A stretch of DNA of 56,518 nt from Nitrospirota bacterium (GTDB taxonomy: Bacteria; Nitrospirota; Thermodesulfovibrionia; Thermodesulfovibrionales; Dissulfurispiraceae), in the NCBI GenBank assembly GCA_021792185.1, contig JAJYVD010000013.1, forward strand, positions 1 to 56,518, written 5' to 3'. Position numbers and translations under genes: made by a program. The notes beneath the pieces are model-generated. The model searched no databases, was not told the origin of the DNA, and saw nothing but the letters and a program-made list of their open reading frames with translations. Positions 18,623 through 23,874 of this stretch are shown piece after piece (position 1 is the first letter of the stretch; each line of letters starts with the position of its first letter).

Positions 18623-18651
18623 TTGACATAGGTTTCATTAGCTATCATAAT
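18623..18651 (+). promoter_or_regulatory. Sigma-70 promoter of the activase locus
   Basis: TTGACA at 18623-18628, 17-bp spacer, CATAAT at 18646-18651. It now faces the truncated copy at 18692, the toxin-antitoxin remnant and only then the intact activase, about 870 bp away. Confidence 0.65.
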
Positions 18652-18691
18652 GACAATAGGGCATTTGAAGATATTTTGCCGGAGGGGGATT

Positions 18692-18943
18692 ATGCATTTT
18701 ATCGGACTTGATGCCGGTTCCGTGGCTGTTAAGCTCGTTGTCCTCGATAAAAACGGGGTCGTTATTGAAAGGCATTATGTCAGGCATTACGGACACGCCG
18801 TCAGAACGGCGCTCGAACTTTTAAAAGTCATAAAAGAAAAATTTTCTGAAAGTTCTTTATCCATTACAGGCTCTGCCGGAAAGATCATCGCCTCAACGCT
18901 GAAGATAAGTCCGATTAACGAGATCGTCTCTCAGTTCTATTAA
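18692..18943 (+). pseudogene. Truncated duplicate of the activase 5' end
   Basis: Encodes 83 residues from an ATG at 18692 with GGAGGGGG upstream. The first 137 bases are identical to 19525-19661. Identity then falls: single differences at first, many in the last 60 bases. The frame stops after SQFY where the intact gene continues SQSYSVKK. Only the first half of an ASKHA ATPase domain remains, so it cannot be an activase. The identity gradient suggests conversion or a recent recombination between two diverged homologs. Confidence 0.8.
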
Positions 18944-18969
18944 TCAGGCTTTTATGATAAGATAAGGCT

Positions 18970-19296
18970 ATGAAGAAGCTCCGCCTTTACATTGATACAT
19001 CTATTCTTGGCGGTATCTTTGATACGGAAGACCTCAAACGGGTGAAGACAGCCCAATTGCTCCTGGAATTGATTAAAGACGGCACTTACGAAGGGTTTAT
19101 ATCACGGCTAACGATTGAAGAGGTCTTTGACGCCCCTGAAAAGATACATTTGTCTCTGCAAAATAGAATTGTAGAAACAGGGTTCATTATAGCTGTAAGG
19201 CGGCTTGTAAACAGCGTGAACTTGAGAATGGGCTATAACCCTATTGAAATAATCTCTCCAGAGGAGGTGATCGGTAATGGAGAAATGGGACTATAA
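18970..19296 (+). CDS. PIN-domain (VapC-like) toxin with a large internal deletion
   Basis: 108 residues; PIN toxins are usually 130-160. The N-terminus is intact (LYIDTSILGG with the first catalytic Asp, LTIEEV with the Glu). The C-terminal NSVNLRMGYNPIEIISPEEVI matches the family's usual end. The middle part that normally carries the remaining catalytic acids (ADALHIA...SWNF) is missing between ETGFI and VRRLVN. It is therefore probably inactive as a nuclease. It overlaps the next small gene by 20 bases, an arrangement typical of this toxin-antitoxin type. Confidence 0.65.
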   Translation: MKKLRLYIDTSILGGIFDTEDLKRVKTAQLLLELIKDGTYEGFISRLTIEEVFDAPEKIHLSLQNRIVETGFIIAVRRLVNSVNLRMGYNPIEIISPEEVIGNGEMGL

Positions 19297-19459
19297 ATCT
19301 CTTGAGTGGATACATCAAGCAAGGGAAGAAAATTATAAAAAGACAAAAAAGCTTTCGCCTGCTGAATTAGTCAAAAAAACGCATAATGCTACCGATACTG
19401 CTATTAAGGCTATGGGGCTAAAAGTTGTTAGGATGAGAGACCAAGTGCATACTCATTGA
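19277..19459 (+). CDS. Small antitoxin-like protein paired with the PIN gene
   Basis: 60 residues (starts MEKWDYKSLEWIHQAREENY). Small proteins of this kind commonly follow PIN genes of this class and serve as their antitoxins. An AGAGGAGGTGAT ribosome-binding site lies just upstream of the ATG. The gene overlaps the PIN frame. It lies between the truncated and full activase copies. Confidence 0.6.
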   Translation: MEKWDYKSLEWIHQAREENYKKTKKLSPAELVKKTHNATDTAIKAMGLKVVRMRDQVHTH

Positions 19460-19524
19460 TATTGCTTGCGTTAGCTCGAAATTGCAAAGGTTAGGTTTAC
19501 GCATAAAGAATTCGCGGGGGGATT

Positions 19525-22500
19525 ATGCATTTTATCGGACTTGATGCCGGTTCCGTGGCTGTTAAGCTCGTTGTCCTCGATAAAAACGGGGTCGTTATTG
19601 AAAGGCATTATGTCAGGCATTACGGACACGCCGTCAGAACGGCGCTCGAACTTTTAAAAGGCATAAAAGAAAAATTTTCTGAAAGTTTTTTATCCATTAC
19701 CGGCTCTACCGGAAAGATCATCTCTTCCACGTTTAAGATAAGGCCGATCAATGAAATCGTTTCGCAGTCATATTCCGTAAAAAAACTATTTCCGCATATT
19801 AAGACCGTTATCGAGCTCGGGGGGGAAGATTCCAAGCTCATTATTTTGGAGGATGGAAATATAAAGGATTTTTCTATGAACTCCGTTTGTGCAGCGGGCA
19901 CCGGCTCTTTTTTGGAACAGCAGGCGGAGAGGCTGAGGTTCGGCATAGAAGAATTCAGCGAAATAGCCGCAAAGTCTAAGCGGCCTTCCAAGATTGCGGG
20001 CAGGTGCAGCGTTTTCGCTAAGTCGGACATGATACATCTCCAGCAGATAGCTGCGCCTGTTGAAGACATCGTTGCAGGCCTCTGTTTTGCGGTCGCGCGT
20101 AATTTTAAAGGAACTATCGCCAAAGGCAGGGACGTAAAAGCGCCGATGGCTTTTCAGGGAGGCGTAGCCGCGAATAAAGGAATGATAAGGGCGTTTAAAG
20201 AGGTGTTTGAACTTGATGAACTTTTCATTCCGCCCGATTTCGCCTTTATGGGTGCATTGGGTGCTGTCATAAAGGACATGGATGAGGATCGCAGAAATAC
20301 CTTCGATATCAAGGAACTCGAGTCCTTTGTTTTATCCGCAAGGTTTTCGGAACAAGGGCATGCGCCTTTAATATTGAAGGAAGATGATTTTTTTGAAAGA
20401 CACATAGATAGAGCGGAAGATAGGAAGATCGGAAGGAAAAACTTCCATAGTGTAACTTCCGAGCTTCCGAGCTTCCGAGCTTCTGTTCTAATAACTGCTT
20501 ATCTCGGAATTGACATCGGTTCGATAAGCACCAACCTTGCCGTTATAGATGAGGACGGCAATCTCCTCGCCAAACGTTATCTGATGACTGCAGGCAGGCC
20601 TATTGAAGCGGTAAAGCAGGGGCTTGAGGAGATTTATTCGGAAATCGGGAACCGGGTCGAGATTGCAGGGGTCGGGACTACCGGTTCCGGGAGGTATATG
20701 ATAGCGGATTATGTCGGCGCCGATATAGTGAAAAACGAAATTACGGCTCAGGCGACCGCCGCGATATATATAGATCCGCAAGTAGATACTATTTTCGAGA
20801 TAGGGGGACAGGATTCTAAGTATATTTCAATCCGTGACGGTATTATCGTCGATTTCGAAATGAATAAGGCGTGCGCCGCAGGCACGGGCTCATTCATAGA
20901 AGAACAGGCCGAGAAGCTCGATATCTCGGTAAAGAAAGAGTTCGCCGAATGCGCTTTCCGTGCCGAGAGCCCGTGCAGGCTCGGCGAGCGGTGCACGGTG
21001 TTTATGGAGAATTCCCTTATGGCGAATCTCCAGAGAGGCGCTGAAAAGGACGGCCTTCTTGCGGGGCTTGCGTATTCCATTGTTCAAAACTACATAAACA
21101 GGGTTGTTGCCGGAAAGCCGGTAGGCAAAAATATTTTCTTTCAGGGCGGAGTGGCTTTCAATAAGGCGGTTGTCGCTGCGTTTGAAAAATATTTGGACAG
21201 AAAGATAACCGTCCCGCCAAATCATGATGTTACAGGCGCTATCGGCATGGCGCTTATCGCAAGGGATTATATGAAAAAGAATGTGAGAGGGTATCGGTGT
21301 GACGGGGTATCGGAGAATATGTCACACCGACACACTGATACACTCCGATACACCGATACTTCGATACACCAACACACTAAATTCAAGGGTTTTGAATTTT
21401 CAAGAAAGCCGTATGAGATAAGCTCTTTTGAATGCAAAGGATGCCCGAATGTATGCGAGATCAACAGGGTAAAGATTCAGGACGAAGAAGGTTATTTGTT
21501 TTACGGCGGGAGATGCGAAAAATACGATGTGAGAAGGGCTAAAAAATCCGAACTTCCGGACCTCTTTGCGTTCAGGGAAGAGATGCTCTGGAAGGCGCAT
21601 AATGAAAGAGCAGAAGAGCAGGAGAGCAGAAGAGCGAAGGATGCTTCTGAGCTTCCGCGCTTCCGCACTTCCGCACTAAAGATCGGAATTCCTTACATTT
21701 TCTTTTTCCACGACCAACTTCCTTTCTGGTCGACGTTTTTATGGGAACTCGGATTTGAGGTTGTGGTTTCTCCAAAGACGAACAAACAGGTCGTGAACCT
21801 CGGCGTCGAAAACGTCCTTTCCGAGGCGTGTTTCCCGGTAAAGGTCGCGCACGGGCATATAAAATGGCTTAAAGACGCAGGCGCAGACGCCGTCTTTATT
21901 CCGAGCTTTATAGGATTGAATCGGCACGGCGAAGGGTATAACAAAGGCGTGGCATGCCCGCATACCCAGACTATTCCGTATGTCTCAAAGGCAGCCATTC
22001 AGGGAATAAAAACACTAAGCCCTATTGTTAATTTTGAGTTGGGCTCAAAATTCCTTAAGAGGGAATTGAAAATGGCATTTGAGGAATACGGCATAAGCGG
22101 CAAGGATATCGAAAGGGCGCTGCAAAGCGCCGAATCCGCTCAATCGGAGTTCCAGAGGGCAATAAGAGAAAAAGGGCGGGAGATATTAAAATTAAGTGCG
22201 GAAGCACAGACTACCATCGTAATCATCGGCAGGGCGTATAATGCCTTTGATTCCGAAGTCAATCTCGAAATTCCTAAGAGACTGTCTCATATAGATGTGC
22301 TCTCGATCCCTATGGATATGCTTCCGGCGGATAATGAAAGGCTTCAGGATTCATGGCCCAATATGTATTGGAGGTCGGGTCAGAGGATACTGAGAGCGGC
22401 GCGGATAGTGAAAAATACGCCCAATCTCTATGCGATTTATATAGGAAATTTTTCATGCGGCCCCGATTCTTTTATACTTAAATATTTCAAAGAGGAGATG

Positions 22501-23874
22501 CAAGAGAAGCCTTTCCTGCACATAGAAATAGACGAGCACAGCGCGGATGCAGGCGCGGTAACGCGGTGCGAGGCATTTTTGGACAGCATTGAACAGCAGA
22601 GCAGAAGAACAGAAGTGCAGAAGATCGGAAGTACGGAAACAAAAGACTTCAGAGACAGCAATGCTTCCGCTCTTCCGCACTTCCGCGCTGCTGCGCTTAA
22701 AAAACGCACGGTTTTCATTCCGCGCATGGCAGATCATGCGTTTGCCCTGAAGGCTGCCTTTGAATACTGCGGCGTTCCCGCAGAGGTGCTGCCTGAATCG
22801 GATAAAGAATCCGTAGACATCGGCAGGAAATACGTATCCGGCAAGGAGTGTTACCCTTATCTGGTAACCGCAGGCGATATGTTGAAGAAGGTCTTTTCAT
22901 CTGATTTTAAGCCGGGAGAATCGGCTTTCTTTATGCCGTCCGGCACCGGACCGTGCAGATTCGGCCAGTATAATGTGGCGCAAAAACTCATCCTCGAAAA
23001 ACTGGGACTTAAAGAGGTGCCTATTTTCGCTCCCAATCAGGACATCGAATTTTACAGGGATCTCGGAATAGCAGGCAAGGATTTTTCAATGAGGGCATGG
23101 AGCGGGATCGTCGCATATGAGCTGCTTACGAAATGCCTGCATGAAACGAGGCCGTATGAGAAAACACACGGCGATTCCGAATGCCTTTATGGAAACTACA
23201 GCGAAAAGATCGGCCTGAGCATAAGCGGCAGGAACGGGGATATTAAATATCTTCTCAAGGATATGGGGATTGCGTTTAGGGCTATACCGCTTAAGAAAGA
23301 AAAGAGGCCGCTCATAGGCATTGTCGGGGAGATATTCGTGAGATCGCATAAATTTTCCAACGAACACTTGGTTAAAAAAATAGAATCTCTCGGCGGTCAA
23401 GCATGGCTTGCGCCTATAGAGGAGTGGATATACTATGTGAATGCCATGTCTTTGAGAAAAGCCTTGATAAAAAAGGATAGGTCTGCTATCATGAATATCT
23501 TCTTAAAACGGGTCTTTCAAAAGCGCATTCAGCACAGATTCGAGAAAGCCTTTAGAGGTTTTTTGAAGACACTGAAGGAGCCGGATACAAAAGAGATATT
23601 GAAAAAGGCGGCGCCGTACGTCCACGACTCCTTTGAAGGAGAGACGGTGTTAAGCGTGGGCAAGGCGATAGACCTTATAAATAGAGATGCATCGGGCATC
23701 GTCAATGCTATGCCCTTCGGCTGCATGCCGGGAACTATCGTTACCGCTCTTATGAAGGCGGTAAGCAAGGATTACGGCGTGCCATGCATAAGCATTCCGT
23801 ATGACGGCACGGAGTCGCCGGCAACGGCGCTTCAGCTTGAGGCGTTTATGGAATCCGCTAAGATGAGGAGGTGA
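19525..23874 (+). CDS. Large activase of the 2-hydroxyacyl-CoA dehydratase type (two ASKHA domains, DUF2229)
   Basis: 1449 residues. Two BadF/BcrD-type ASKHA ATPase domains: the first about 1-260 (GLDAGS; VCAAGTGSFLEQQ; GRCSVF), the second about 325-575 (GIDIGS; ACAAGTGSFIEEQ; GERCTVF). Each has the cysteines that ligate a dimer-bridging [4Fe-4S] cluster in HgdC. The rest is a DUF2229/HgdB-like region with several Cys. Small activases pass an electron to dehydratases with ATP hydrolysis; the role of the giant form is unknown. Four tandem-repeat arrays are inserted in frame in its linkers (20414-20485, 21291-21378, 21608-21675, 22591-22695). The ATG at 19525 follows GGGGGG. Confidence 0.8.
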   Translation: MHFIGLDAGSVAVKLVVLDKNGVVIERHYVRHYGHAVRTALELLKGIKEKFSESFLSITGSTGKIISSTFKIRPINEIVSQSYSVKKLFPHIKTVIELGGEDSKLIILEDGNIKDFSMNSVCAAGTGSFLEQQAERLRFGIEEFSEIAAKSKRPSKIAGRCSVFAKSDMIHLQQIAAPVEDIVAGLCFAVARNFKGTIAKGRDVKAPMAFQGGVAANKGMIRAFKEVFELDELFIPPDFAFMGALGAVIKDMDEDRRNTFDIKELESFVLSARFSEQGHAPLILKEDDFFERHIDRAEDRKIGRKNFHSVTSELPSFRASVLITAYLGIDIGSISTNLAVIDEDGNLLAKRYLMTAGRPIEAVKQGLEEIYSEIGNRVEIAGVGTTGSGRYMIADYVGADIVKNEITAQATAAIYIDPQVDTIFEIGGQDSKYISIRDGIIVDFEMNKACAAGTGSFIEEQAEKLDISVKKEFAECAFRAESPCRLGERCTVFMENSLMANLQRGAEKDGLLAGLAYSIVQNYINRVVAGKPVGKNIFFQGGVAFNKAVVAAFEKYLDRKITVPPNHDVTGAIGMALIARDYMKKNVRGYRCDGVSENMSHRHTDTLRYTDTSIHQHTKFKGFEFSRKPYEISSFECKGCPNVCEINRVKIQDEEGYLFYGGRCEKYDVRRAKKSELPDLFAFREEMLWKAHNERAEEQESRRAKDASELPRFRTSALKIGIPYIFFFHDQLPFWSTFLWELGFEVVVSPKTNKQVVNLGVENVLSEACFPVKVAHGHIKWLKDAGADAVFIPSFIGLNRHGEGYNKGVACPHTQTIPYVSKAAIQGIKTLSPIVNFELGSKFLKRELKMAFEEYGISGKDIERALQSAESAQSEFQRAIREKGREILKLSAEAQTTIVIIGRAYNAFDSEVNLEIPKRLSHIDVLSIPMDMLPADNERLQDSWPNMYWRSGQRILRAARIVKNTPNLYAIYIGNFSCGPDSFILKYFKEEMQEKPFLHIEIDEHSADAGAVTRCEAFLDSIEQQSRRTEVQKIGSTETKDFRDSNASALPHFRAAALKKRTVFIPRMADHAFALKAAFEYCGVPAEVLPESDKESVDIGRKYVSGKECYPYLVTAGDMLKKVFSSDFKPGESAFFMPSGTGPCRFGQYNVAQKLILEKLGLKEVPIFAPNQDIEFYRDLGIAGKDFSMRAWSGIVAYELLTKCLHETRPYEKTHGDSECLYGNYSEKIGLSISGRNGDIKYLLKDMGIAFRAIPLKKEKRPLIGIVGEIFVRSHKFSNEHLVKKIESLGGQAWLAPIEEWIYYVNAMSLRKALIKKDRSAIMNIFLKRVFQKRIQHRFEKAFRGFLKTLKEPDTKEILKKAAPYVHDSFEGETVLSVGKAIDLINRDASGIVNAMPFGCMPGTIVTALMKAVSKDYGVPCISIPYDGTESPATALQLEAFMESAKMRR
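20414..20485 (+). repeat. Facing octamer arrays in the activase, site 1
   Basis: CGGAAGAT-AGGAAGAT-CGGAAGGA (20414-20437) faces three CTTCCGAG units (20456-20479) and a decayed fourth. The two arms are inverted and could pair. It lies in the linker between the two ASKHA domains and keeps the frame. Confidence 0.7.
21291..21378 (+). repeat. Facing GTATCGG / CCGATAC arrays in the activase, site 2
   Basis: GTATCGG occurs twice at 21291-21313, and CCGATAC-type units repeat at 21347-21369. They encode a polar linker rich in Arg, His and Thr (SHRHTDTLRYTDTSIHQHT) immediately after the second ASKHA domain. Confidence 0.65.
21608..21675 (+). repeat. Facing octamer arrays in the activase, site 3
   Basis: GAGCAGAA-GAGCAGGA-GAGCAGAA-GAGCGAAG (21608-21639) faces CTTCTGAG-CTTCCGCG-CTTCCGCA-CTTCCGCA (21644-21675). 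The octamer periodicity is exact over both arms. They encode a charged linker (NERAEEQESRRAKDASELP). Confidence 0.75.
22591..22695 (+). repeat. Facing octamer arrays in the activase, site 4
   Basis: Six octamers ending in GCA, GAA or GGAA at 22591-22638 face CTTCCGCT-CTTCCGCA-CTTCCGCG-CTGCTGCG at 22664-22695. They use the same CTTCCGC unit as site 3. The repeats encode a polar linker (EQQSRRTEVQKIGSTETK). Confidence 0.75.

Follow-up and report, generated by a model that had tools for sequence, protein, structure and literature searches.

Probable insertion-duplication of an activase gene start around a PIN-type toxin-antitoxin module with an apparently inactive toxin in a Nitrospirota bacterium

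The spread and stacking of toxin-antitoxin (TA) modules are usually explained by integrons, transposons or plasmids. Integrative elements that bring along a replacement gene end are known as well, and the second gene end keeps the target gene whole. Homologous recombination offers other routes. In Escherichia coli, linear DNA can be ligated into a circle and then integrated via a single crossing-over, and homology-facilitated illegitimate recombination can join a non-homologous end (PMC3240628). Transformation commonly leaves mosaic patches of donor DNA (PMC13344027). In the T6SS effector-immunity displacement arrays of Vibrio cholerae, a module is anchored via a conserved part of a gene, and gene remnants remain together with an orphaned protective gene (PMC5361080).

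The locus described here lies in the window, by which we mean the whole analysed stretch of 56,518 nucleotides from a Nitrospirota bacterium (contig JAJYVD010000013.1). A small TA module is positioned between a truncated copy of the start of a large acyl-CoA dehydratase activase gene and the intact gene, and the locus is composed of the following features.

18623..18651, + strand: native activase promoter, TTGACA-17-CATAAT, now 5' of the truncated copy (11/12 consensus match; hexamers and spacing the same in the relatives G001 and G002)
18684..18941, + strand: copy 1 of the repeat, a truncated activase start with ribosome-binding site (repeat alignment; DNA match to G002 stops at its end; conserved residues A62 and A67 retained)
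18684..18827, + strand: identical tract, equal to 19517-19660, the proposed crossover and conversion tract (144 nt)
18942..19516, + strand: inserted segment of 575 bp with a GC content of 40%, against 47% in the activase (missing at the syntenic G002 site; single copy in the genome)
18970..19296, + strand: PIN/VapC-like toxin, 108 aa left after an in-frame internal deletion of 53 aa, probably inactive (alignments with full-length relatives; PIN fold of a relative)
19277..19459, + strand: intact antitoxin-like ORF of 60 aa overlapping the toxin end (50-68% identity to antitoxins adjoining full-length toxins)
19517..19774, + strand: copy 2 of the repeat, with the ribosome-binding site and start of the intact activase (repeat alignment)
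19525..23874, + strand: intact acyl-CoA dehydratase activase of 1449 aa, with two BcrAD_BadFG domains, DUF2229 and HGD-D (ORF and domain matches; orthologs in 27/31 family genomes, the window's genome counted)

The locus shares with end-replacing integrative elements the second gene end that keeps the target whole, but it has no integrase, the insert comprises only 575 bp, and the repeat far exceeds an attachment site in length and in divergence. It shares with VapBC systems the PIN/VapC fold of the full-length toxin relatives, the small overlapping antitoxin gene and the sporadic distribution, whereas the toxin of the window lacks the 53-aa catalytic core, the toxin gene lies 5' of the antitoxin gene, and the antitoxin falls outside curated families. 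The succession of truncated copy, foreign segment and whole copy, with homology on the gene side and one or two illegitimate junctions, is also that of Campbell-type single-crossover insertion-duplication and of homology-facilitated illegitimate recombination (PMC3240628); unlike those cases, the window holds a natural event, its identical tract and diverged tails require conversion, and no deletion of recipient DNA is seen in it. With the V. cholerae arrays (PMC5361080) the locus has in common an incoming module that is anchored via a conserved gene part and leaves remnants and an orphaned protective gene, but the effector gene itself is displaced there, while the window duplicates the start of an unrelated metabolic gene and its protective gene belongs to the insert.

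The direct repeat found by comparison within the window (18684-18941 against 19517-19774) extends over 258 nt at 93% identity, with its copies 833 bases apart, and both copies carry the ribosome-binding site and the start of the activase gene. It is the only spaced direct repeat in the whole window at a length of at least 60 nt and an identity of at least 78%, with copies no more than 4 kb apart. Homology stops 8 nt 5' of the ATG at one end and at approximately nt 250 of the gene at the other, and the ORF of copy 1 (18692-18943, 83 aa) runs into a stop codon at the break (TAA, 18941-18943). The first 144 nt are identical between the copies and consist of 136 nt counted from the ATG at 18692 and the 8 nt preceding it. 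Beyond this tract, 17 sites differ in about 113 nt (0/144 against 17/114, Fisher p 5e-7). An earlier sequence-only reading of this DNA had recognised the duplication, which stands, although the 137 unchanged bases that it counted from 18692 require the above correction. The same reading had described identity as decaying toward the breakpoint. The copies do diverge past the identical tract, but the rise of differences toward the break within the diverged part is weak (4/54 against 13/60, p 0.04), and the divergence is therefore mainly a step, a term that fits better than gradient.

The inserted segment contains no ORFs beyond those of toxin and antitoxin. Close relatives of the toxin are approximately 157-161 aa in length and come from the same order and from other Nitrospirota-like and 'deltaproteobacterial' bins. 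The toxin of the window lacks 53 consecutive residues in the alignment, including DDARHIA and VSWNYKHMVN, which are kept in 12/12 full-length relatives, and it matches the Pfam PIN family only below the cut-off (E 0.09), while its relative at locus L039 clears that cut-off (31.3 vs 23.6 bits). The model of another relative, L059 (pLDDT 85.7), has VapC toxins as its top structural matches, VapC catalytic-site mutants among them, which identifies the toxin family, at the level of predicted structure, as PIN/VapC-like. The complete acidic active site is not present in the toxin of the window, as a core stretch is deleted, and the deletion covers the part that, going by VapC toxins in general, should hold the C-terminal catalytic acid. 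With this 53-aa core missing, the toxin is most likely inactive. The TA pair that had been noticed between the two copies is thus present as two ORFs with the antitoxin intact, but hardly as a working cassette.

The antitoxin is full length, exhibits 68% identity to its counterpart at L039, and is encoded next to the toxin in an arrangement that is conserved in relatives. A domain-family search returned no curated family covering it, and no solved structure was found by sequence search. The toxin family occurs sporadically, with any match in 15/176 genomes of the order; within the window's own bacterial family, a close match is found only in one other genome (G010), at a different locus. The antitoxin has no match among the plasmids of PLSDB and the toxin has none in viral contigs, and plasmid and viral origins of the module were accordingly rejected. 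A decayed relative of the toxin, comprising the C-terminal part only, lies beside a repeat region at L042 1465-1656 (apparently the same locus as L066).

G002, a genome of the same genus, has the upstream glycosyltransferase gene, the intergenic region and one activase gene in an unbroken row and lacks the cassette. The DNA match between the left part of the window and G002 stops at 18941, where the G002 gene continues. G001 likewise possesses a single activase, and no second activase gene start occurs in family genomes other than the window's (31 genomes). The empty site in G002 and the lack of a second gene start elsewhere in the family indicate that the insertion is particular to the lineage of the window, as far as the genomes compared can tell. 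Such a comparison with sister genomes had been proposed from the sequence alone, with a full second activase at this place in a relative named as the contrary case; it was sought among the family genomes and not found.

At 18623 lies the only strong promoter-like site, and nothing comparable occurs between the cassette and the intact activase, which bears out the earlier observation that the only clear promoter precedes the truncated copy. Because G001 and G002 carry this promoter at the same position, upstream of their single activase, the site is the activase's own promoter. Transcription that starts there and reads through the cassette probably accounts for expression of the intact activase. 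The promoter spacer (18629-18645) is closer to that of G001 than to that of the otherwise closer G002, a further sign of mosaicism.

The origin of the two tails can be approached via their distances. Over the diverged part, the two copies are 85% identical to one another; copy 1 and copy 2 exhibit 81% and 76% identity to G002 and 81% and 80% identity to G001, respectively, and G001 and G002 are 87% identical. The tail divergence of 15% is thus about the between-species level of the genus. Copy 1, copy 2, G001 and G002 lie about equally far from ten more distant relatives, which argues that neither copy is decaying or hypermutating; localised hypermutation and pseudogene decay were excluded on these relative rates, as there is no acceleration against the ten outgroups. 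A diversity-generating retroelement was also rejected, since the substitutions between the copies are not limited to adenines. The truncated copy is the more typical one at conserved residues, with A62 (13/13 relatives at the deciding base) and A67 (12/13) in place of the T and S of the intact activase.

Along the gene, the window groups with G002 at nt 1-136 and 341-705 (G001 odd at 56 sites, the window odd at 9), but not at nt 137-340 (9 G001-odd and 25 window-odd sites; pattern switch chi2 p 5e-9), and trees of short segments point the same way with moderate support only. The tail of copy 2, the presumed resident allele, is also unlike G002 at nt 137-340. A wider profile shows identity to G002 changing from patch to patch throughout the neighbourhood, within about 75-99%. 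The idea that nt 137-340 of both copies represents an import into a background 96% like G002 was dropped, as that background is itself a 75-99% mosaic. The sober conclusion from these comparisons is that the tails are alleles from two lineages, as far apart as species of the genus, at a frequently recombining locus. The sequence-only reading had likewise preferred recombination or gene conversion between diverged homologs to a simple tandem duplication; the 15% divergence of the tails, the lack of acceleration and the mosaic relation to G002 all fit.

A direct duplication flanks the insert and one copy of the gene is whole, as in insertion-duplication. The locus is a lineage-specific insertion-duplication with a toxin-dead PIN module, to judge from the sequences compared, and a variant of known recombination outcomes. 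We consider it moderately probable that it arose by RecA-type insertion-duplication with DNA from a related species and with conversion of the 144-nt crossover tract. The donor DNA would have carried a PIN-type TA module adjoining an activase start (about -8 to +250), and this piece may have been end-joined, circularised or illegitimately joined at one end. Homology-driven entry into the resident activase would have involved one crossover in the first ~144 nt, and repair would have copied this tract so that it became identical in both copies, while the tails beyond it would keep the parental alleles; the duplicated parts do look like two parental alleles, both in their divergence and in their equal outgroup rates. 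The product would possess, in order, the native promoter, the truncated gene start, the TA module and the intact gene with its own ribosome-binding site, and the activase would have survived because the duplication regenerated one whole copy. We infer a single event, the identity of the donor, and the order in which the toxin decayed, by the in-frame loss of 53 aa with the antitoxin ORF kept. The cassette could be lost again via recombination between the 144-nt repeats. The ORFs in the insert include no mobility gene, repeat analysis gave no terminal inverted repeats, and a genome search gave no further copies. Among the TA relatives fetched, there was no donor with the same TA module adjoining an activase. 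As the tail of copy 2 is unlike G002, at least one further exchange is needed in the lineage of the window or of G002.

A history in two steps is possible, if rather unlikely. In an ancestor, the TA module would first have entered immediately 5' of the ribosome-binding site of the activase, and the gene start would have been imported later, when the upstream region and activase start of a cassette-less relative recombined by left-side homology. The import would have been joined illegitimately just 5' of the TA module, which brought back the native promoter followed by a truncated gene start, and gene conversion would finally have evened out the first 144 nt. The upstream flank is indeed native and G002-like, copy 1 retains the conserved residues of the family, the one-sided junction is typical of homology-facilitated illegitimate recombination (PMC3240628), and the scheme is similar to the displacement model of effector-immunity arrays (PMC5361080); however, more separate events are required, and the tail of copy 1 is just 81% like G002 compared with about 96-99% for the flank. 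The direct orientation and sharp ends of the repeat would also suit a simple tandem duplication in the window's own lineage, with the TA module inserted between the copies and a useless fragment left to decay. This is disfavoured and seems very improbable, because 144 nt with zero divergence are followed by 113 nt that diverge by 15% (p 5e-7), and because it is not the truncated copy that changes faster and this copy has the better conserved residues.

An assembly or binning artefact that joined the alleles of two strains might be suspected in a draft genome of 89 contigs, the more so as the identical block of 144 nt comes close to k-mer sizes in common use and the tails resemble alleles from different lineages. 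We nonetheless regard it as very unlikely, since it would take two novel junctions (activase nt 250 to cassette, and cassette to activase -8) and the collapse of two ordinary single-copy alleles cannot yield both; a molecule with both junctions either has a gene start on each side of the TA module or is a small circle, which is the proposed intermediate, and the flanks are syntenic with G002. We find hardest to credit an element moved by an integrase or transposase, with the gene start as its target and a replacement start on board that keeps the gene whole. Replacement gene ends are familiar from such elements in general and the unusual residues do sit in the start of the intact gene, but the 575 bp hold no recombinase ORF, no inverted termini surround the single-copy insert, and attachment sites are shorter and less diverged than the repeat.

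Similar layouts recur at other loci of the same TA family, where direct repeats also surround the TA module. At L065 (3410-8408), an intact uvrA is followed by a second PIN gene and the TA module and then by a 312-nt copy (93%) of the uvrA 3' end. At L061 (3151-7453, the same locus as L040), a DNA methyltransferase gene is followed by the TA module, a methyltransferase 3' fragment, a ParE-type module, a fragment, a PIN module and further short fragments, so that copies of the methyltransferase 3' end of 255-352 nt have PIN, ParE-type and PIN modules between them. The TA module at L062 lies near methyltransferase fragments (3' ends) on either side, and at L058 a gene end of 133 nt flanks the module on both sides. 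The window's own genome provides two more examples. At L077 (798-3181, contig C77), the 3' end of a DpnI-type nuclease gene appears two more times, first behind a HicAB pair and then behind a PIN toxin, next to a related methyltransferase, and at L109 an 86-nt repeat surrounds a small two-gene unit that adjoins a ParE-type toxin. L080 was not retained as a clean case, as it looks like tandem paralogs with common 5' regions. Spaced repeats of this type are rare in the same genome, of which 416 kb contained only that of the window, a tandem array, and one 83-nt pair between membrane-protein genes that look like paralogs.

Since just 2/36 other TA loci in that genome are bracketed by repeats, an excess of bracketing repeats at TA loci is a lead, suggestive but not proven, and not a result. 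We advance only tentatively, and think it unlikely on present grounds, that TA modules in these bacteria spread as units tied to the end of a host gene, integrating by homology, leaving duplicated ends and building integrase-free arrays. Our searches found no on-point literature on TA modules between duplicated gene ends. If the pairing holds, it would offer TA modules a simple integrase-free way to spread and stack in chromosomes. Taken by itself, the case is fairly ordinary, and the recurrence in relatives possibly reflects a general pattern. The window provides a readable snapshot of the way in which a TA module can enter a coding gene without destroying it; the enzyme stays whole because the gene start was duplicated, and of the module only the antitoxin is kept and the toxin lost.

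The activase itself displays two additional peculiarities. Its identity to G002 shifts from approximately 95-99% at 19864-21200 to 74-78% at 21822-22200, with a steady identity to G001. It also contains 8-bp tandem repeats (e.g. CTTCCGAG, ACACCGAT) at 20456-20483, 21324-21370, 21606-21639, 21652-21677 and 22591-22624, which sit at inter-domain linkers whose sequences differ in G001 and G002.
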